Shown: positions 5,819 through 14,436 of the stretch, one piece after another | How positions within the stretch are numbered: position 1 is the first letter of the stretch | Layout of the letters: every line of letters begins with the position of its first letter | Source of the DNA: Actinomycetospora straminea | Lineage (GTDB): Bacteria > Actinomycetota > Actinomycetes > Mycobacteriales > Pseudonocardiaceae | DNA length: 64,000 nucleotides | Direction: 5' to 3' | NCBI RefSeq assembly: GCF_028737255.1 | Contig: NZ_JAQZAN010000002.1 | Location: 186,001-250,000 of the forward strand | Translations under genes and position numbers: made by a program | The notes under the pieces: model-generated | Database searches by the model: none | Seen by the model: only the letters and a program-made list of their open reading frames with translations | What the model was told of the DNA's origin: nothing

Positions 5819-5822
5819 ATGA
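5802..5822 (+). other. Six-codon upstream open frame overlapping the next start codon
   Basis: AGGAAGG (5789-5795) lies six bases before an ATG at 5802. The frame ATG-AGG-AGG-TAC-GTC-GGA-TGA overlaps the start codon of the next gene (5819) by ATGA. The two AGG arginine codons also form the ribosome binding site for the next gene. It could be a coupling leader peptide, or chance overlap around a strong Shine-Dalgarno sequence. Confidence 0.3.
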
Positions 5823-6277
5823 CGTCCACAGATCGATCGGACGAGCTGCACGCCGCCGGCCTGGACGGGCAGAACAGGACCGCGCTGGGCCGGCTCCTCG
5901 GCACCGGCAACGTCGGGCACGCCGAGGTCGGCGACGACGGGATCATGCGCGCCACGGTGCGCATCCCGGAGGACGAGCTGATCTTCGAGCCCTCGATCGT
6001 GGTCTTCCCGCAGGGCGGCGAGGTCGAGCTCACGCTCATCAACGACGACAAGAACACCCACTGCGCGGTGCTGCCCCACAACGGTGACCCCAAGATCATC
6101 TGGCTGGTCAACCACTCCAAGGGCACCGCCCGCCTCTCGCTGGGCGGCCCCGGCACCTACTACTACGGCTCCACGACCGGCAACGACGAGGGCCGCGGGC
6201 TCACGGCGGCGCTCGTGTTCGGCGGCGAGGTCCCCGACGACGCGAAGCAGGACCGTCCCCCGCAGCCGCGTCCGTAG
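5819..6277 (+). CDS. PQQ-associated cupredoxin-fold protein (MSMEG_3727-like)
   Basis: A 152-residue protein found next to PQQ alcohol dehydrogenases in actinobacteria. The core (EPSIVVFPQGGEVELTLIND, then GPGTYYYGSTTGNDEGRGL) has the strand pattern of cupredoxins. The C-terminal loop that normally supplies the Cys, His and Met copper ligands has no equivalents here; only H81 (NTHC) might correspond to a ligand. It is therefore unlikely to be an ordinary type I copper electron carrier. No signal peptide is visible. The start ATG at 5819 has GAGGAGG eight bases upstream. It lies 42 bases before the PQQ dehydrogenase, presumably in one transcript. A partner, chaperone or scaffold role for the dehydrogenase is inferred from position only. 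Confidence 0.75.
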   Translation: MTSTDRSDELHAAGLDGQNRTALGRLLGTGNVGHAEVGDDGIMRATVRIPEDELIFEPSIVVFPQGGEVELTLINDDKNTHCAVLPHNGDPKIIWLVNHSKGTARLSLGGPGTYYYGSTTGNDEGRGLTAALVFGGEVPDDAKQDRPPQPRP

Positions 6278-6319: not shown

Positions 6320-8011
6320 ATGACCGACTACGTGGACGCCGGCGAGGCCGTCCCGCACCGCACGCTGTCCGCCACCAAGGGCCAGGCCCCGGCGACCAGC
6401 GACGTCAACTACGAGCGCATCCAGCAGGCCCGCAACGAGCCGGAGAACTGGCTCACCTACTACGGCGCCTACGACGCGCAGCGCTACAGCACGCTCGACC
6501 AGATCAACAAGGACAACGTCAAGCGCCTGACCCCGGCGTGGGTCTTCCAGGCCGGCATGAACGGCCTCCACTCCGGCGCGTCGACGTACTCGTTCGAGGC
6601 CTGCCCGCTGGTCGTCGAGGGCGTCATGTACGTGACCGGCCCCGACGGCAAGATCTGGGCGATCGACGCCGCCACCGGCGAGGAGCTGTGGCGCTACAAG
6701 CACGCCTCGCCGTACGACGTGTCGCTGTGCTGCGGCAACGTCAACCGCGGCTGCGCCGTGGGCCACGGCAAGGTGTACATGTACACCCTCAACGCCCACC
6801 TCATCTGCCTGGACGCGCAGACCGGCGAGCTGGTGTGGGACGTCGTCAACGGCGACGTGCGGGCCGGCGAGAGCGGCTCGGTCGCGCCGCTGATCGTCAA
6901 GGACATGGTCATCGTCGGCAGCGCCGGCGGCGAGTTCGGCCTCCGCGGCCACATGGACGCCTTCGACGCCCAGACCGGCGAGCGCCGCTGGCGCACCTAC
7001 ACGATCCCGAAGCCGGGCGAGCCCGGTTCGGAGACGTGGGGCGACGAGGCCGGCGAGGCGTGGCAGCGCGGCGGCGCGAACTGCTGGGTCACCCCGTCCT
7101 ACGACCCCGAGCTCGAGCTGCTGTTCCAGGGCACCGGCAACCCGGCGCCCGACTTCGACGGCGACGTGCGCCCGGGCGACAACCTCTACACCGACTCGAC
7201 CATCGCGGTCGACGTGAACACCGGCCAGATCCGCTGGCACTACCAGTTCACGCCCCACGACCTGTGGGACTACGACTCGACGATGGAGAACCTTCTCTTC
7301 GACGCGCCCGACGGCCGCAAGCTGCTCGCGCACGCCGACAAGAACGGCTACTTCTTCGTCCTCGACCGCACCAACGGCGAGCTGGTGCGCGTCTTCCCCT
7401 TCGTCGACCGCATCACCTGGGGCGAGATCACGCCGGACGGCAAGGTCACGCCGAAGGTGTACCCGGACGAGGAGGGTGTGCCCGTCCACTTCTGGCCCGG
7501 CCCGGCCGGCGGCAAGGAGTGGACGCACATGTCGTACAACCCGAACACCGGGTTGATCTACGTGCCCGTCCAGGAGGTCGGGGCGACGGCGACCCGCCGC
7601 CGCCGCGAGTTCCGCGAGAGCATCCCCTACTGGGGCGCCGGCGTGGCCGTCGACCTCGACGACTTCTACGGCTACGTCGCCGCGATCGACCCGCTCACGG
7701 GCGAGGAGAAGTGGCGCTGGAACAACGAGTACCCGATGTGCGCCTCGACGCTGAGCACGGCCGGCGGCCTGGTCTTCCAGGGCACGCCGACGGGCGAGCT
7801 CGTGGCGCTGGACGCGGACACCGGCGAGAAGCTGTACTCCTTCCAGTGCGGCAGCGGCCACCACTCGAGCCCGTCGACCTACTCGGTCAACGGGCGCCAG
7901 TACGTGGCCGTGCCGACCGGCTGGGGCGGCTGGGTCGAGGGCTTCCTGCCCGGCCTGCTCGGCGCCTCCGCCGGCGACGCGCTGTTCGTGTTCGCGCTGC
8001 CCGAGAGCTGA
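6320..8011 (+). CDS. PQQ-dependent alcohol dehydrogenase with lanthanide-type DYD signature
   Basis: A 563-residue eight-bladed beta-propeller quinoprotein of the methanol/ethanol dehydrogenase family, which oxidises primary alcohols to aldehydes using PQQ. Tryptophan-docking repeats (WAIDAATGEELW, FDAQTGERRW) recur through the chain. The adjacent-cysteine disulfide that caps PQQ is C137-C138. Metal ligands by family alignment are E205 (GGEFG), N274 (GTGNPAP) and the catalytic D317. A second Asp, D319 (WDYDS), sits where XoxF/ExaF-type enzymes carry the extra lanthanide ligand and calcium enzymes do not. The N-terminus (MTDYVDAGEA) shows no Sec or Tat signal, unlike classical periplasmic members. 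GAGAGGA precedes the ATG. pqqA follows 42 bases downstream. The substrate is not readable from sequence; methanol or ethanol is likely given the formaldehyde dehydrogenase nearby. Confidence 0.9.
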   Translation: MTDYVDAGEAVPHRTLSATKGQAPATSDVNYERIQQARNEPENWLTYYGAYDAQRYSTLDQINKDNVKRLTPAWVFQAGMNGLHSGASTYSFEACPLVVEGVMYVTGPDGKIWAIDAATGEELWRYKHASPYDVSLCCGNVNRGCAVGHGKVYMYTLNAHLICLDAQTGELVWDVVNGDVRAGESGSVAPLIVKDMVIVGSAGGEFGLRGHMDAFDAQTGERRWRTYTIPKPGEPGSETWGDEAGEAWQRGGANCWVTPSYDPELELLFQGTGNPAPDFDGDVRPGDNLYTDSTIAVDVNTGQIRWHYQFTPHDLWDYDSTMENLLFDAPDGRKLLAHADKNGYFFVLDRTNGELVRVFPFVDRITWGEITPDGKVTPKVYPDEEGVPVHFWPGPAGGKEWTHMSYNPNTGLIYVPVQEVGATATRRRREFRESIPYWGAGVAVDLDDFYGYVAAIDPLTGEEKWRWNNEYPMCASTLSTAGGLVFQGTPTGELVALDADTGEKLYSFQCGSGHHSSPSTYSVNGRQYVAVPTGWGGWVEGFLPGLLGASAGDALFVFALPES

Positions 8012-8053: not shown

Positions 8054-8143
8054 ATGGAGATGCACGTCTGGGAGACCCCGCAGTTCGAGGAGATCGGCGT
8101 CGCGCCCGAGGTGACGATGTACGTCGCCCAGATGGACGACTAG
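8054..8143 (+). CDS. pqqA: PqqA precursor peptide, copy 1
   Basis: A 29-codon gene for the ribosomal precursor of PQQ. The conserved Glu and Tyr that PqqE joins are E19 and Y23 in PEVTMYVAQ, with the family spacing of three residues between them. An AGAGGAGATCGGT ribosome binding site precedes the ATG. The C-terminal part is nearly identical to the second copy at 9303-9395, while the N-terminal ends differ (MEMHVWETP versus MESLSIWETP). The gene is followed by a 14-bp GCGA-loop hairpin, so it may be expressed in excess over the genes behind it. Confidence 0.9.
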   Translation: MEMHVWETPQFEEIGVAPEVTMYVAQMDD

Positions 8144-8157
8144 CGGACGGAACCACG

Positions 8158-8189
8158 AAGGGGCGCCGGAAGCGATTCCGGCGCCCCTT
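8158..8189 (+). terminator. Perfect hairpin after pqqA copy 1 (attenuator or processing signal)
   Basis: A 14-bp perfect stem (8158-8171 with 8176-8189) closes a GCGA tetraloop, a GNRA-type stable loop. Only TTC follows, not a T tract, so partial termination or protection of the short pqqA transcript from 3' decay is more likely than full termination. The arm GGGGCGCCGGA recurs after the second pqqA. Confidence 0.7.
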
Positions 8190-8236
8190 CGCGGTGTCCG
8201 GTGTCCGTCCGCGATCGGGGATCCGCAGGAGGTGTC

Positions 8237-8452
8237 ATGACGGTCGAGCAGACCGAGGCGAGGCCCGAGGCCAAGCGCTGGCTCTGCGAAATGTGCGGGT
8301 TCATCTATGATCCGGAGGAGGGTGATCCCGACAGCGGCATCCCGCCCGGGACGCCTTTCGAGGACATCCCGGACGACTGGATGTGTCCGATCTGCGGCGC
8401 CGAGAAGTCGGACTTCCGTGAGTTGGCCCCGGGCGAGTTCCCGGAGATGTGA
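8237..8452 (+). CDS. Rubredoxin
   Basis: A 71-residue one-iron electron carrier. The four iron-binding cysteines lie in two canonical knuckles, CEMCG and CPICG, with the family signatures [17 protein letters not shown] and [11 protein letters not shown]. The start ATG at 8237 has AGGAGG five bases upstream. The stop is followed 13 bases later by the R2lox-like gene, so the two are almost certainly cotranscribed. Rubredoxins commonly feed electrons to diiron proteins. By position, its partner here would be that neighbour or the PQQ dehydrogenase; neither is shown by sequence alone. Confidence 0.93.
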
Positions 8453-8465
8453 GGTAGCAGCAAGA

Positions 8466-9230
8466 ATGATCACCGGGTACGGCCACTTCGCGCAGCTCGC
8501 CGAATCGCTCCAGTGGGACGAGACCACCATCGACCTCACGGCCGACATCGAGGCCTGGGGCAAGCTCGAGCAGGAGGAGTACGACCAGGTCCTCGGGCTG
8601 CTCGCCGGCTTCTGCGTCGGCGAGACCTCCGTCGCCACCCACCTGACGTCGTTCCAGGCCGCGGCCAGCACCGATGACCGCATGGTCGAGGTCCTCCAGG
8701 CCCAGGCCCGGGACGAGGCGCGCCACGCCCGCTTCTTCGACCGGGTCGTGCGCGAGGTCGCGGGCGTGCCCGGGAACAACATGGCCGAGCGCATCGACGT
8801 CCTGCGCGACCGCATCAGCCCGGACCTCCTCGAGCTCTTCGAGGAGAAGCTGCCGGCCATCGCGGCCTCGGTCGCCGACGACCACTCGCAGCTCACGGCG
8901 GCCGTCGGGCTCTACCACATGATCCTCGAGGGCGTGGTGCTCACGGCCGGCCAGCACGCCCTGCTGCAGACGCTCAAGGGCCTGTCGGTCCAGATGCCGG
9001 GCACGCACAAGGGAATGGAGCTCGTGCTCCGCGACGAGCGCTGGCACATCGGTTTCGGCTCCCGCGTCATCCAGAGCGCGGACGTCGTCGACGACCAGAT
9101 GGAGGAACTGCTCACCCAGGGTGTCAAGGCGGCATCCGCGTGGGGCGACCTGATCTCGCAGGACGACATCGCCCAGGTCGAGCACCTCCACCAGCGGCGC
9201 CTGAAGTCGGTCGGCATCAAGTTCTGGTGA
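8466..9230 (+). CDS. R2-like ligand-binding oxidase (R2lox-type ferritin-like protein)
   Basis: A 254-residue helical protein related to ribonucleotide reductase R2 and R2lox. A full six-ligand dimetal site is visible: E53, E84 and H87 (DEARH), E155 (MILEG), E191 and H194 (DERWH). V56 lies three residues after the first Glu and Y150 five residues before E155, the spacings of the Val-Tyr ether crosslink described for R2lox proteins. This argues for R2lox rather than a true nucleotide reductase subunit, and no R1 subunit gene is near. R2lox enzymes carry a Mn/Fe or diiron site, bind a fatty acid-like ligand and activate oxygen, but no physiological reaction is established for them. The gene lies between rubredoxin and pqqA copy 2 in a PQQ island, which suggests a role in the same oxidation pathway. 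Confidence 0.75.
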   Translation: MITGYGHFAQLAESLQWDETTIDLTADIEAWGKLEQEEYDQVLGLLAGFCVGETSVATHLTSFQAAASTDDRMVEVLQAQARDEARHARFFDRVVREVAGVPGNNMAERIDVLRDRISPDLLELFEEKLPAIAASVADDHSQLTAAVGLYHMILEGVVLTAGQHALLQTLKGLSVQMPGTHKGMELVLRDERWHIGFGSRVIQSADVVDDQMEELLTQGVKAASAWGDLISQDDIAQVEHLHQRRLKSVGIKFW

Positions 9231-9302: not shown

Positions 9303-9395
9303 ATGGAGTCGCTCTCCATCTGGGAGACCCCCGAGTTCGAAGAACTCGGCGTCGCCCCCGAGGTGACGATGTACGTCGCCCAGCTCGACGACTGA
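9303..9395 (+). CDS. pqqA: PqqA precursor peptide, copy 2
   Basis: A 30-codon second PQQ precursor gene. E20 and Y24 in PEVTMYVAQ are the residues joined by PqqE. The last 12 codons match copy 1 almost base for base; the leader half has diverged (MESLSIWETPEFEELGV). GAGAGGAGG stands upstream, somewhat far from the ATG. It is followed by a hairpin closely related to the one behind copy 1 and then by pqqB-pqqE, so this is the copy in the normal pqqABCDE arrangement. Confidence 0.9.
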   Translation: MESLSIWETPEFEELGVAPEVTMYVAQLDD

Positions 9396-9404
9396 CGACC
9401 TACC

Positions 9405-9443
9405 GACAGGGGCGCCGGAGATCGCTTTTCCGGCGCCCCTGTC
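9405..9443 (+). terminator. Hairpin between pqqA copy 2 and pqqB
   Basis: A 15-bp perfect stem (9405-9419 with 9429-9443) with a nine-base loop. The arm CAGGGGCGCCGGA shares its core with the hairpin behind pqqA copy 1, so peptide gene and hairpin look duplicated together. A hairpin between pqqA and the enzyme genes would keep precursor mRNA in excess over pqqB-pqqE. Confidence 0.7.
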
Positions 9444-9488
9444 GCCGTCGGGTGGCGACGTGTGACATCGACAGGAGGGACGACAGCG

Positions 9489-10385
9489 ATGTGGCTGCGG
9501 GTGCTCGGCGCCGGTGCGGGCGGCGGCTTCCCCCAGTGGAACTGCGGGTGCCCGGGCTGCCGCGCGGTCCGCGAGGGCTCGCGTCCCGCCTCGCCGCGGA
9601 CGCAGTCGTCGATCGCCGTGAGCGCCGACCGCACCACGTGGTTCCTCGTCAACGCCTCCCCCGACCTGCGGGCCCAGATCGAGGCCGCCCCGGAGCTGCG
9701 CCCGCGGGACAAGCGGGACAGCCCGATCGCCGCCGTGCTGCTCACCGACGCCGAGCTCGACCACACGATGGGTCTGCTGCTGCTGCGCGAGGGGCCCGGC
9801 GTCGCGGTCCACGCCACCGACGCGTCGTTCGCGACGCTCACCGACGGCACGGGCTTCGTCCCGACGCTGGAGCGGTACACGCAGGTCACCCGGCACGTGG
9901 TGGTGCCGGGCGAGACCGTCGCGCTGGCCGAGGGCCTGAGCTACACCGCGTTCGACGTGCCGACGGTGAAGAAGGCGCGCTTCGGCGGCGGGACGGACAT
10001 CGAGGGCCGCGTCGTCGGCTACCGCTTCACCGACACCACCTCCGGCCGGACCGCCGTGTACCTGCCCGGCGTCCAGGAGGTCACGCCCGCGGTGCACGAC
10101 GAGCTGGCGGCCGCGGACGTCGTGCTCGTCGACGGCACCACGTGGACCGACGACGAGATGATCCGGCTGGGCCTCGCGTCGAAGACCGCCCGCGACATGG
10201 GCCACCTGGCCGTCGACGGCCCGGACGGGAGCCTCGCGGTCCTGTCGGGCCTGCGGGCCGAGCGCAAGATCTACGTGCACATCAACAATTCCAACCCGAT
10301 GCTGCTCGAGGACTCCGCGGAGTACGCGACGGTCACCGCCCGTGGGGCCGAGGTCGCGACCGACGGGCTCGAGGTGGAGGTCTGA
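9489..10385 (+). CDS. pqqB: PQQ biosynthesis protein PqqB (metallo-beta-lactamase fold hydroxylase)
   Basis: A 298-residue metallo-beta-lactamase-fold protein reported in the family to be an iron-dependent hydroxylase acting on the crosslinked Glu-Tyr dipeptide. The signature starts are present: LRVLGAGAGGGFPQWNCGCPGC with its zinc-binding cysteines, then LLTDAELDHTMGLLLLREG, the altered HxHxDH motif typical of PqqB. The C-terminal HINNSNPMLLE motif is intact. The ATG at 9489 has AGGAGG about ten bases upstream. It is the first enzyme gene of pqqBCDE and ends five bases before pqqC. Confidence 0.95.
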   Translation: MWLRVLGAGAGGGFPQWNCGCPGCRAVREGSRPASPRTQSSIAVSADRTTWFLVNASPDLRAQIEAAPELRPRDKRDSPIAAVLLTDAELDHTMGLLLLREGPGVAVHATDASFATLTDGTGFVPTLERYTQVTRHVVVPGETVALAEGLSYTAFDVPTVKKARFGGGTDIEGRVVGYRFTDTTSGRTAVYLPGVQEVTPAVHDELAAADVVLVDGTTWTDDEMIRLGLASKTARDMGHLAVDGPDGSLAVLSGLRAERKIYVHINNSNPMLLEDSAEYATVTARGAEVATDGLEVEV

Positions 10386-10390
10386 GGCGG

Positions 10391-11143
10391 ATGACGGCGA
10401 CACACGCGACCACCGGCACCGCGACACCCACCAGGCCCGGGACGGCGGTCGGCCCCGACGCGCTCGTCGAGCGGCTGCGCTCCCAGGCCACGCGCTACCA
10501 CAGCGAGCACGACTTCCACGTGCGCATGAACGCCGGCGAGCTCTCGCCCGACCAGATCCGCGGCTGGGTCGCCAACCGGTTCTGCTACCAGGAGGCGATC
10601 CCGCGCAAGGACGCCGCGGTGCTGGGCAACTGCCCCGACCGCGAGGTCCGCAAGCGCTGGATCCGACGGATCACCGACCACGACGGCACCGACACCACCG
10701 AGGGCGGCATCGAGGCCTGGCTGCGTCTCGGGGAGGCGTGCGGGGTCCCCCGCGCGGAGATGGAGGACGGCCGGCACATCGTCCCGGGCGTGCGGTTCGC
10801 GGTGGAGGCCTACGTGACCTTCGCGCGCACCCGGCCGTGGGTCGAGGCCGTCGCCTCCTCGCTCACCGAGCTGTTCGCCCCGGGCCTCATGGCCGAGCGG
10901 CTCGCGGCGTTCGAGAAGCACTACACGTGGATCGACAAGGACGGCCTCGACTACTTCCGCAACCGGCTCCACCAGGCGCCGCGCGACTCCGAGCACGCGC
11001 TGGAGATCGTCAAGGAGCGCTGCCGGACCGCGGAGCAGCAGGACGCCGCCGTCGCCGCGCTCGCGTTCAAGAACGACGTGCTGTGGAGCATGATGGACGC
11101 GATCGACAAGGCCTACCCGGCGGAGAAGGCGTCCCCGTCGTGA
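10391..11143 (+). CDS. pqqC: Pyrroloquinoline-quinone synthase PqqC
   Basis: A 250-residue cofactorless oxidase that performs the final ring closure and eight-electron oxidation to PQQ. Family blocks are clear: RYHSEHDFHVRMNAGEL, WVANRFCYQEAIPRKDAA with the active-site region, ITDHDGTD, ELFAPGLMAERLAAFEKHYTWI and YFRNRLHQAPRDSEHAL. About 20 Thr/Ala-rich residues precede the conserved core. The stop overlaps the GTG of pqqD by four bases (GTGA), which predicts coupled translation. The gene follows pqqB after five bases. Confidence 0.96.
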   Translation: MTATHATTGTATPTRPGTAVGPDALVERLRSQATRYHSEHDFHVRMNAGELSPDQIRGWVANRFCYQEAIPRKDAAVLGNCPDREVRKRWIRRITDHDGTDTTEGGIEAWLRLGEACGVPRAEMEDGRHIVPGVRFAVEAYVTFARTRPWVEAVASSLTELFAPGLMAERLAAFEKHYTWIDKDGLDYFRNRLHQAPRDSEHALEIVKERCRTAEQQDAAVAALAFKNDVLWSMMDAIDKAYPAEKASPS

Positions 11144-11421
11144 CCAGCACCGTGCCGCGCACCGGGCGGCCGCGGCTCGCCCGGTTCGTCAAGATGCGCT
11201 ACGACAAGGCCCGCGAGCGCCAGGTGCTGCTCGGGCCGGAGACGGTCGTGGTGCTCAACCCGACCGGCGCCGACATCCTCGGTCTCTGCGACGGCGCGCA
11301 CAGCGTCGGCGACATCGTGGACGAGCTCGGCCGCCGGTACGACCGCGTCGTCGACGACGAGGTGACCTCGTTCCTCGAGCGCCTCGCGTCCCGGCGCTGG
11401 GTGGAGATCCCCGATGACTGA
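11140..11421 (+). CDS. pqqD: PQQ peptide chaperone PqqD
   Basis: A 93-residue RiPP recognition element protein that binds PqqA and presents it to the radical SAM enzyme PqqE. The core runs RLARFVKMRYDKARERQVLLGPE and VLNPTGADILGLCDGAHSVGDIVDEL, typical of the winged-helix PqqD fold. The GTG start at 11140 overlaps the pqqC stop. The end overlaps the pqqE ATG (11414) by eight bases. Single-domain PqqD next to PqqE is the standard arrangement. Confidence 0.94.
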   Translation: MTSTVPRTGRPRLARFVKMRYDKARERQVLLGPETVVVLNPTGADILGLCDGAHSVGDIVDELGRRYDRVVDDEVTSFLERLASRRWVEIPDD

Positions 11422-12556
11422 GACGCCCGACGGCCCCCTCGGCCTGCTCGCCGAGCTGACCCACGCCTGCCCGCTCTCGTGCGCCTACTGCTCCAACCCG
11501 CTGGAGCTGACGAAGCGCTCCGCGGAGCTGACCACCGACGACTGGCGCCGCGTGCTCGACGAGGCCGCCGACCTCGGGGTCCTGCAGAGCCACTTCTCCG
11601 GCGGCGAGCCGTTGCTGCGCCGGGACATCGTCGACCTCGTCGCCCACGCGAGCGGGCTCGGCCTCTACACCAACCTCGTGACCAGCGCGATCGGGCTGTC
11701 CCGGCCACGGGCGGAGGCACTGCGCGACGCCGGCCTCGACCACGTCCAGGTCAGCATCCAGGCCGACGAGCCCGTGCTGTCCGACCAGCTCGCCGGCATC
11801 TCCTCGTTCGACAAGAAGATGGAGGCCGCGCGGCTGGTCAAGGAGCTCGGCTGGCCGCTGACCCTCAACGTCGTGCTGCACCGGCAGAACATCGACCGCA
11901 TCGGCGCCATCCTCGAGCGGGTCGAGGAGCTCCAGGCCGACCGCGTCGAGCTCGCCAACACCCAGTACTACGGCTGGGCGCTGCGCAACCGCGAGGCCCT
12001 GCTGCCGAGCCGCGAACAGCTCGAGCGCGCCGAGCAGGTCACGCGCGAGGCCCGGGAGCGCCTGCGCGGGCGCACCGACGTCATCTACGTCATCCCCGAC
12101 TACTACAGCCGCTACCCCAAGCCCTGCATGGGCGGCTGGGGCTCGCGCCAGCTCGTCGTCGGCCCCGAGGGCAACGCCTGGCCGTGCCTGTCGGCCCACG
12201 AGCTGCCGCTGCCGCGGGCGAACGTGACCGAGCACGACCTCGGCTGGATCTGGCGGTCCTCCCCGCTGTTCACCGCGTTCCGCGGCACCGACTGGATGCC
12301 CGACCCGTGCCGCAGCTGCGAGCGCCGCGAGGTCGACCTCGGCGGCTGCCGCTGCCAGGCCTTCCAGCTCACCGGCGACATGACCCGCACCGACCCGGTC
12401 TGCGTGCTCTCGCCGGACCGCGGGATCATCGACGCCGCCGTCGAGGCCGCGAACAGCGACGAGGGGCCGGCTGTGCCGTCCCACGAGCCGGCCCGCGAAC
12501 CTGTCCTCGTGCCGGTCCCCGCGCTCGTGTCCCGGCCCCACCGGGCGGACGAGTGA
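11414..12556 (+). CDS. pqqE: Radical SAM enzyme PqqE
   Basis: A 380-residue SPASM-domain radical SAM protein that forms the carbon-carbon bond between Glu and Tyr of PqqA. The radical SAM cluster motif CxxxCxxC is C19, C23, C26 (HACPLSCAYC). The SGGEPLLRRD motif follows. The C-terminal SPASM cysteines appear in PCMGGWGSRQL, WPCLSAHELP, CRSCERREVDLGGCRCQAF and PVC, for auxiliary clusters. The last 50 residues are a variable tail. It is translated from inside the end of pqqD. With two PqqA copies nearby, it presumably processes both. Confidence 0.96.
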   Translation: MTETPDGPLGLLAELTHACPLSCAYCSNPLELTKRSAELTTDDWRRVLDEAADLGVLQSHFSGGEPLLRRDIVDLVAHASGLGLYTNLVTSAIGLSRPRAEALRDAGLDHVQVSIQADEPVLSDQLAGISSFDKKMEAARLVKELGWPLTLNVVLHRQNIDRIGAILERVEELQADRVELANTQYYGWALRNREALLPSREQLERAEQVTREARERLRGRTDVIYVIPDYYSRYPKPCMGGWGSRQLVVGPEGNAWPCLSAHELPLPRANVTEHDLGWIWRSSPLFTAFRGTDWMPDPCRSCERREVDLGGCRCQAFQLTGDMTRTDPVCVLSPDRGIIDAAVEAANSDEGPAVPSHEPAREPVLVPVPALVSRPHRADE

Positions 12557-13365: not shown

Positions 13366-14436
13366 GTGATCCCGGTCCTCACGTTCGTCCTGGGCGTCGC
13401 GGTCCTCGTGTACTGCGCCGAGAAGCTGATCGGCCAGCTGGTCGGGGTCGCGAGCCGGTGGGCGATCTCGCTCTTCCTCGTCGCCCTGGTGTTCACCGGC
13501 GTCGAGGTCGACGACCTCGCCCTCGGGCTCGCGCTGGGCCTCGAGGACCTCCACGAGGTCGCCCTCGGCACCGTCATCGGCACCACGATCGCGATGCCCG
13601 GGCTGGTGCTCGCCGTCGCCGCGGCCGTGGCCCCGACGTCGGTGGCGGTGCCCCGCGACTACCTGGCCCTCTACGCCGGGGCCCCCGTGGTCATGTACGC
13701 CCTCGCGCTCACGGGGCGCCTGACGGCCCTCACCGGCGTCGTGCTCCTCGTGCTGTTCGCCGCCTTCGTCGCGTGGATCGGCCTGCGCGAGTACGCCGCG
13801 CGGCGCCCGGTGTGGCGCGACGCGGCGCTCTACGAGCAGATCGACCGCGTGACCCTCGGCGGCGGGATCGCGTCCCGGCGCGGCCGCCCGGAGCCCGCGG
13901 GCCCGGCCGGCGCTCCCCCGCCCGGCGTCCGCGTCGACGCGGGCTTCCTGCGCGCCCGGCGCCGCTCGCCGGCGACCGCCGTGGCGCTCGCCGTCCTCGC
14001 GCTCGCCGGGCTCGTCGTGGGCGCCGCCGTGGCCGGGGCCGGCACCGAGGGGATCCTCGAGGAGTTCGCGCTCCCGGGCACGGTCTTCGGCGTCACGGTG
14101 GCCACGCTCGCCCTGTCCCTCGAGGACCTCCTGCTCACCGTCGAGCCCGCGCGACGCGGCGCGCCGGAGATCGGCGTCGCCAACGTCGTCGGCAGTGTCG
14201 TGTTCTCGGTGACCGGCAAGCTCGGGATCCTGCTGCTGGCCGGCGGGACGATGGTCGTCACCGACGAGGTCGTGCGCTGGCACCTGCCGGTGCTCGTGCT
14301 CCTGACCGCGACGTCCGCGGTGTTCCTCGCGTCCGGGCGGCTGCGCCGCCGCCATGGGGTCGTGCTGCTCGCCGCGTACGTCGCCTACGTCGTCGTCAGC
14401 CTGGTGTCCTTCGGCGGGGTCCCGGTCGGGGACTGA
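13366..14436 (+). CDS. CaCA-type (sodium/calcium exchanger-like) membrane protein
   Basis: A 356-residue protein with about ten helices in two halves around a central hydrophilic loop (about 145-195). The internal repeats resemble the alpha-1 and alpha-2 motifs of Ca2+/cation antiporters: ALGTVIGTTIAMPGL in the first half and GVANVVGSVVFSVTGKLG in the second. The first repeat lacks the usual Ser-Asn, so ion choice may differ. It starts with GTG 10 bases after the GDT1-like gene and is probably cotranscribed. Its place behind the pqq genes suggests metal supply for the PQQ enzyme, an inference from position only. Confidence 0.7.
   Translation: MIPVLTFVLGVAVLVYCAEKLIGQLVGVASRWAISLFLVALVFTGVEVDDLALGLALGLEDLHEVALGTVIGTTIAMPGLVLAVAAAVAPTSVAVPRDYLALYAGAPVVMYALALTGRLTALTGVVLLVLFAAFVAWIGLREYAARRPVWRDAALYEQIDRVTLGGGIASRRGRPEPAGPAGAPPPGVRVDAGFLRARRRSPATAVALAVLALAGLVVGAAVAGAGTEGILEEFALPGTVFGVTVATLALSLEDLLLTVEPARRGAPEIGVANVVGSVVFSVTGKLGILLLAGGTMVVTDEVVRWHLPVLVLLTATSAVFLASGRLRRRHGVVLLAAYVAYVVVSLVSFGGVPVGD

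Follow-up and report, generated by a model that had tools for sequence, protein, structure and literature searches.

Gene content of the locus

The window (the whole stretch of Actinomycetospora straminea DNA that was analysed, 64,000 nucleotides in length) contains a forward-strand group of genes for pyrroloquinoline quinone (PQQ) synthesis and for a PQQ-dependent dehydrogenase. Here, Rd denotes rubredoxin, R2x denotes the R2lox-like dimetal oxidase of the window together with its orthologues, and DH-A and DH-B denote two kinds of PQQ-dependent dehydrogenase copies that are split by identity to the window's enzyme. The group begins with a 152-residue PQQ-associated protein of the MSMEG_3727 family (5819..6277; TIGR04339, 4.4e-74, 247 bits against a cut-off of 75). 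Its gene lies directly 5' of the window's 563-residue PQQ-dependent alcohol dehydrogenase, a DH-A (6320..8011; TIGR03075, 626.7 bits, cut-off 480), and genes of this family also adjoin DH-A in Pseudonocardia loci as well as DH-B. The PQQ precursor peptide gene pqqA1 follows (8054..8143; TIGR02107, 2.7e-7, 30.3 bits against 20; PF08042, 2e-7). Rd, of 71 residues, lies 93 nt further on (8237..8452; PF00301, 8.9e-25, 86.9 bits against a gathering threshold of 23), and after a gap of 13 nt comes R2x, of 254 residues (8466..9230; PF00268, 61.6 bits against a cut-off of 33.6). Downstream are a second precursor peptide gene, pqqA2 (9303..9395; TIGR02107, 4.4e-7, 29.6 bits against 20), and, again after 93 nt, pqqB (9489..10385; TIGR02108, 390.7 bits, cut-off 245). 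Next are pqqC (10391..11143; TIGR02111, 310.9 bits at the corresponding place of its own genome), pqqD (11140..11421), whose GTG start overlaps the pqqC stop and whose assignment comes from its position, open frame and aligned same-order counterparts in other loci, and the radical SAM gene pqqE (11414..12556; TIGR02109, 519.3 bits, cut-off 381). The initial annotation placed the R2lox-like gene 13 bases after the rubredoxin gene, with start and end right to the base. It also set the pair between two pqqA copies and ahead of pqqBCDE; this describes the window correctly and does not generalize, given that only one pqqA is seen in L044-L048, the A. chiangmaiensis group, and in the loci of Pseudonocardia.

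Both PqqA copies of the window carry EVTMY as their ExxxY motif. Each pqqA stop is followed by a GC-rich hairpin stretch, at 8144..8218 (forward strand; predicted fold of -53.8 kcal/mol over 75 nt) and at 9396-9470, with a stem containing GGGGCGCCGG. Hairpins were likewise found 3' of most of the pqqA genes that were folded, on the DH-A side and the DH-B side alike. The predicted hairpin after pqqA1 is a candidate terminator-like or attenuator-like element, and such a post-pqqA hairpin may set a high ratio of PqqA to enzyme. A scan with a sigma-70 model, which is not informative for actinobacteria, returned no promoters. A Na/Ca-exchanger-like cation antiporter (13366..14436, forward strand; PF01699, 1.3e-28) is encoded beyond pqqE; such genes occur near many pqq clusters of both the DH-A and DH-B kinds, and the antiporter may handle calcium or a lanthanide for the dehydrogenase.

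R2x is related to R2lox and distinct from it

The metal ligands of R2x are E53, E84, H87, E155, E191 and H194, and a cross-link-type pair is formed by V56 (E53+3) and Y150 (E155-5). All six ligands and both residues of the pair are kept in each of the 38 full-length R2x proteins. Their spacings match those of the R2lox reference, for which the consulted portion of PMC6060897 gives E69, E102, H105, E167, E202, H205, V72 and Y162; the dimetal site and the Val and Tyr spacings reported in the initial annotation are thereby borne out. The best PDB sequence matches of R2x are R2lox proteins, and its predicted model has the R2lox fold, with a lower Z against the R2 subunits of ribonucleotide reductase (NrdB/NrdF). 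The five top NCBIfam models for R2x are all R2lox models, and every one scores far under its cut-off (at best 88.5 bits against 315; another 76.7 against 194). In a tree made by a quick method that leaves some forks open, and into which nine of the 38 R2x sequences were taken, R2x is a single, long-branched clade (SH-aLRT 100) within a group of R2lox-type sequences (SH-aLRT 96).

Two positions separate R2x from its relatives. At residue 159, the counterpart of R2lox Ala171, all 38 R2x proteins have Leu and all 36 R2lox-type sequences have Ala; at residue 193, just before the last His ligand, the same sets have Trp and Arg, respectively (L022 and L111 were left out of the comparison as R2-type sequences lacking the Val/Tyr pair). 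The excerpts of PMC6399176 that were consulted describe Ala171 as lining the fatty-acid tunnel and as conserved in R2lox, give Ala at residue 171 of the R2lox studied there, and place Phe at this position in ribonucleotide reductase R2, where R2x has Leu. Replacement of the tunnel Ala by Leu suggests a substrate other than the long fatty acid of canonical R2lox. The R2lox of the residue-171 study is presumably the Geobacillus protein. Compared with R2lox of known structure (Mycobacterium tuberculosis 3ee4/4ac8; 4hr0 and its variants; Sulfolobus 6qrz/7qbk; Saccharopolyspora erythraea 7qbp), R2x is 20-27% identical and shorter, and it differs further in its IKFW end, its adjacent rubredoxin and its PQQ-dehydrogenase neighbourhood. 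The C-terminus is IKFW in 34 of the 38 proteins; the exceptions are L081 (IRFW), L082 (MRFW), L083 (IKFF) and L074, which runs three residues past IKFW. Down to 57% identity the ligands are invariant and the C-terminus nearly so. Among R2x proteins of named species, that of A. lemnae is nearest to the window's, at 92% identity.

Since the Ala171 position holds Leu and the scores fall far under the NCBIfam R2lox cut-offs, R2x is, by its sequence, filed as an R2lox-like protein set apart from canonical R2lox. The identification of an R2lox-like protein with Val-Tyr features in the initial annotation therefore stands in its general sense, and membership of the canonical family does not. Elsewhere in the phylum, R2lox-type genes at L090, L091, L099 and L114-L116, some of them several to a genome, fall in the tree group around R2x. 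A few have a C-terminal stretch, RRLKVIG, that resembles that of R2x, and their genomes are absent from the pqqC matches of the phylum sample.

Rubredoxin is a near-constant neighbour

The window's Rd scores 93.6 bits with NCBIfam NF045768 (cut-off 90), contains the two CxxCG motifs CEMCG and CPICG, and is the sole PF00301 match of its genome. To survey its association with R2x, 39 distinct R2x loci were assembled from the window, L031-L051 and, with duplicates excluded, 17 of L067-L087. Rd lies directly 5' of R2x in 34 of them. The five loci where it is not adjacent are L041, L079, L082, L083, for which only 119 nt are available 5' of R2x, and L087, so that Rd may be replaceable. L041 holds a second R2x copy of genome G017, whose other copy has Rd. 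Just 5' of R2x in L083 (1-119) and L087 (4540-4628), a PGTE..IP(E/D)DW reading appears without the expected CxxCG; as a sequence, it resembles a worn rubredoxin remnant.

Among 150 relatives, Rd occurs in all 21 R2x genomes and in 25 of the 129 others; 20 of the 21 have no second rubredoxin match. Among R2-like loci other than R2x, 38 were searched at 1e-3 (36 R2lox-type; whole loci of 2.0-3.7 kb), and no rubredoxin turned up in their short flanks; the identical search finds Rd at 34 of the 39 R2x loci.

Alkane hydroxylases and rubrerythrins draw on rubredoxin, and peroxidases that combine it with a dimetal protein of the ferritin-like kind are known. PqqC, for its part, makes H2O2. One could thus picture the Rd-R2x pair as a rubrerythrin-like system that removes peroxide or oxygen and shields the PQQ system. 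This is improbable, as all 38 full-length R2x proteins retain an R2lox-type site and the Val/Tyr pair, and genomes with DH-B and no R2x, described below, should need equal protection.

Neighbourhoods of R2x

A pqq gene or a PQQ dehydrogenase lies in the flank of 36 of the 39 R2x loci, and in the remaining three (L069, L083 and L087) R2x sits at a contig end. An association of this extent between R2x and PQQ is not a matter of chance. Homologues spread at random, with no link to pqq genes, were named in the initial annotation as the outcome contrary to its proposal; the link is instead seen across genera.

The gene order varies among loci and the Rd-R2x link persists. Most Actinomycetospora loci run dehydrogenase, pqqA, Rd, R2x, an optional second pqqA and pqqBCDE, and most Pseudonocardia loci run Rd, R2x and then the dehydrogenase group. 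In L070, L076 and L080, pqqE is followed by Rd and R2x, and in L082 pqqE and R2x overlap by 4 nt. Genomes G009 and G015 keep Rd-R2x with DH-A and pqqA and carry pqqBCDE on a different contig. L041 has R2x and pqqA with neither a dehydrogenase nor pqqBCDE.

Several further features of these loci were observed. The second R2x of G017 (L041:8975-9957) stands beside a lone pqqA, without Rd or a dehydrogenase. Compared with the first G017 copy, in L042, it has 14 differing residues, every one of them ahead of residue 80, and no differences beyond, a sequence pattern such as might be left after gene conversion. An S9-type peptidase gene lies 5' of Rd in nine Pseudonocardia loci, at most about 4.4 kb away (for example, L077:5109-7211); the DH-B loci that were read contain none. 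An M19-type dipeptidase, recognized by eye with no NCBIfam match, lies 3' of R2x in L082. Both peptidases were considered as part of the unit and set aside, their occurrence being too uneven. No other pathway gene travelling with Rd-R2x and DH-A was found in the loci read.

R2x follows one kind of PQQ dehydrogenase

Full-length R2x orthologues (60-100% identity) are present in 21 of the 150 relatives. These are the 18 genomes of the genus, without exception, plus three from elsewhere in the family; identity drops to about 30% in the matches that come next. DH-A (81-100% identity) occurs in exactly these 21 genomes. Seventeen further relatives have DH-B copies only (67-73% identity here, 67-74% over both samples) and no R2x. 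By comparison, PqqC was found in 64 of the 150, including 20 of the 21 R2x genomes; the one missing it, G013, is 59% complete. Forty-four of the 64 have no R2x. They consist of the 17 genomes with DH-B and 27 with no such dehydrogenase at 1e-60, and some PqqC matches of these 27 may be paralogues.

A Pseudonocardia genus group of 62 genomes gives the same picture. R2x occurs in 23 (a fragment being counted for G581), DH-A in the same 23 (as a partial gene in G590), DH-B alone in 24, and neither in 15. PqqC was found in 21 of the 23 R2x genomes, the misses being G581 (89% complete) and G591 (72% complete), and in 24 of the 39 others, so that 24 of 45 pqqC-bearing genomes are without R2x. When both samples are pooled and G066, which belongs to each, is counted once, all 43 DH-A genomes contain R2x, against none of the 41 (17 and 24) that have DH-B only. 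Shared ancestry of the genomes means that these are not independent counts, although the distribution within the Pseudonocardia group is patchy. In 40 of the 43 genomes, R2x and DH-A are found on one contig, the exceptions being the fragmented assemblies of G054, G560 and G581. Twelve genomes have both kinds of dehydrogenase (G005, G062, G541, G543, G562, G565, G566, G570, G575, G577, G590 and G597). In all 12, R2x lies on the contig of DH-A, within about 6 kb, and DH-B lies on a separate contig or more than 100 kb away.

A phylum sample contained pqqC in 12 of 396 genomes. Apart from the window's own genome, none of the 27 genomes with a match to an R2x model at 1e-12 was among them. Spread of R2x on plasmids was considered and dropped, the tblastn search having returned nine records, all below 32% identity. 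A tie between R2x and pqqA or PQQ synthesis in general is ruled out by the pqqC-bearing genomes without R2x. The expectation that the pair co-occurs with pqqA and PQQ thus held as far as linkage to PQQ genes is concerned and gave way to a narrower rule: R2x is co-extensive with one clade of PQQ dehydrogenase, DH-A, and not with PQQ synthesis as such.

Because the genomes are not independent, this co-extension could also reflect the joint inheritance of one operon. Rd-R2x would then be a hitchhiker in the DH-A operon with no functional link to it, and a block inherited or moved as one would have the same distribution. Such an account is very improbable, given that gene order has been reshuffled in at least three ways with the pair intact, that the ligands are invariant and the C-terminus nearly so, and that R2x is present in each of the 43 DH-A genomes.

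The dehydrogenase itself

In a tree of 46 dehydrogenases, the 32 DH-A sequences form one clade. DH-B is perhaps not a clade, as L138 and L150 fall nearer DH-A under midpoint rooting. The L082 dehydrogenase is sister to the DH-A clade (SH-aLRT 95), with a long branch that makes its placement unsure. At only about 72% identity to the window's enzyme, it is the sole such case among R2x loci and means that a strict identity border does not apply to all of them. Six residues (H149, F359, E419, A443, Y450 and P458) occur in L082 and throughout the DH-A sequences or nearly so, F359 having one exception; each is present in none or one of 13 DH-B sequences. Between genera, the dehydrogenase is about 82-88% identical, against about 62-68% for pqqB. 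Judged by eye, the window's DH-A has no evident signal peptide. It contains WDYD, a motif typical of lanthanide-using PQQ dehydrogenases, whose mark is the second Asp.

These observations bear on the idea that R2x is a maturase of DH-A, introducing an oxidative modification or a cross-link at a dehydrogenase residue. The one-to-one distribution of the two proteins and the six marker residues fit it, as does R2lox chemistry, which, according to the portion of PMC6060897 consulted, joins Tyr to Val within its own chain. Even so, such a role appears quite unlikely; the marker positions are few and perhaps reflect mere descent. A related proposal, still unlikely, regards Rd-R2x as an R2lox offshoot with a fixed partner, Rd, and a fixed client, DH-A, possibly acting as an oxidative-modification or cross-linking maturase of either DH-A or PqqA. 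If true, a maturase role would represent a second, protein-directed use of R2lox cross-linking chemistry.

PQQ biosynthesis with and without R2x

The PQQ biosynthesis proteins were compared column by column between the R2x side and other sequences (31 against 13 for PqqB, 29 against 14 for PqqC, 30 against 13 for PqqD and 29 against 13 for PqqE). Counted on the R2x side are L156 and L157, contigs on which R2x genomes carry pqqBCDE separately; the comparison set includes pqq clusters not beside DH-B and L152, the second cluster of the R2x genome G062. One position in PqqB and one in PqqC passed the filter, and none did in PqqD or PqqE. PqqB to PqqE look intact in sequence. The idea that R2x makes up for a defective PQQ enzyme was accordingly discarded, there being no loss or change of PqqB-E that tracks R2x. 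PqqA encoded beside DH-B (L138, L142, L144-L148 and L150) is much like that of the window, and divergent PqqA is found in other clusters (L140, L143, L152 and L153). With PqqB-E unchanged and PqqA alike beside DH-B, R2x does not look to be required for PQQ as such.

These comparisons are relevant to a role of Rd-R2x in PQQ formation, in which it would assist PqqB and PqqC by oxidizing PqqA, a product of PqqE or an intermediate late in the pathway. A pqqA gene is close to the pair in most loci, even in the dehydrogenase-less L041, and pqqE runs into R2x in L082. This role is nonetheless doubtful. Besides the unchanged residues of PqqB, C, D and E, the 41 DH-B genomes lack R2x, the PqqA of clusters adjoining DH-B closely resembles the window's, with the divergent forms lying in the other clusters, and pqqBCDE is apart from R2x in G009 and G015.

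A proposed role for the Rd-R2x pair

The reading preferred here, at a probability of roughly 40%, is that Rd and R2x form a dedicated, rubredoxin-driven two-part oxygenase serving the DH-A pathway. It builds on the gene pair, the ligands with the Val and Tyr residues, the modelled fold, the near-exclusive rubredoxin and the exact co-distribution with DH-A. We infer that Rd would hand electrons to the dimetal centre of R2x, which may be Mn/Fe or Fe/Fe, and that R2x would split O2 and perform a two-electron oxidation, most likely by hydroxylating a small organic compound. What R2x produces would enter the DH-A pathway, or its substrate would derive from it. For example, R2x could convert R-H to R-OH, which DH-A would oxidize to the aldehyde.

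The alkane oxidation reported for a related R2lox (PMC10867098, as far as its text was consulted) supports an oxygenase. That 2024 report assigns alkane monooxygenase activity to GkR2loxI on the basis of measurements with crude enzyme. The statement in the initial annotation that R2lox has no known physiological reaction is therefore partly dated; the consulted excerpts of papers from 2018 and 2019 (PMC6060897, PMC6399176) call the physiological function unknown. R2x and GkR2loxI share the wider family and a proposed oxygenase reaction, and they differ in that R2x has an adjacent rubredoxin, a term for which a search of the main text of PMC10867098 gave no mention. Counting against an oxygenase that serves DH-A are the lack of further co-travelling pathway genes in the loci read and L041, where R2x adjoins pqqA without a dehydrogenase. 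In addition, the pqqE-Rd-R2x order of L070, L076 and L080 and the pqqE overlap of L082 fit a role in PQQ synthesis equally well.

Relation to known systems and significance

A comparable cluster is MSMEG_3721-3727 of Mycobacterium smegmatis, where, by the description in the consulted part of PMC6529628, PQQ genes are likewise clustered with a PQQ alcohol dehydrogenase. TIGR04339 is named after its MSMEG_3727, and a member is present in the window. Compared by description, Rd-R2x is an addition to such a cluster, observed here solely alongside DH-A and the sister enzyme of L082. An open-access search, with most subscription journals outside its scope, found no literature joining R2lox with rubredoxin or PQQ, nor any joining pqqA with rubredoxin (with ferritin-like or pyrroloquinoline quinone as further terms).

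The presence of Rd-R2x beside one kind of PQQ alcohol dehydrogenase in certain soil bacteria offers a concrete place to seek the task of a little-understood enzyme family. Two kinds of PQQ dehydrogenase operon can coexist in a genome, with one alone accompanied by an O2-activating enzyme. The R2x clade, R2lox-like in sequence, comes with an electron donor of its own and with just one dehydrogenase that shares its distribution, which makes both donor and pathway directly testable in named actinobacterial strains.
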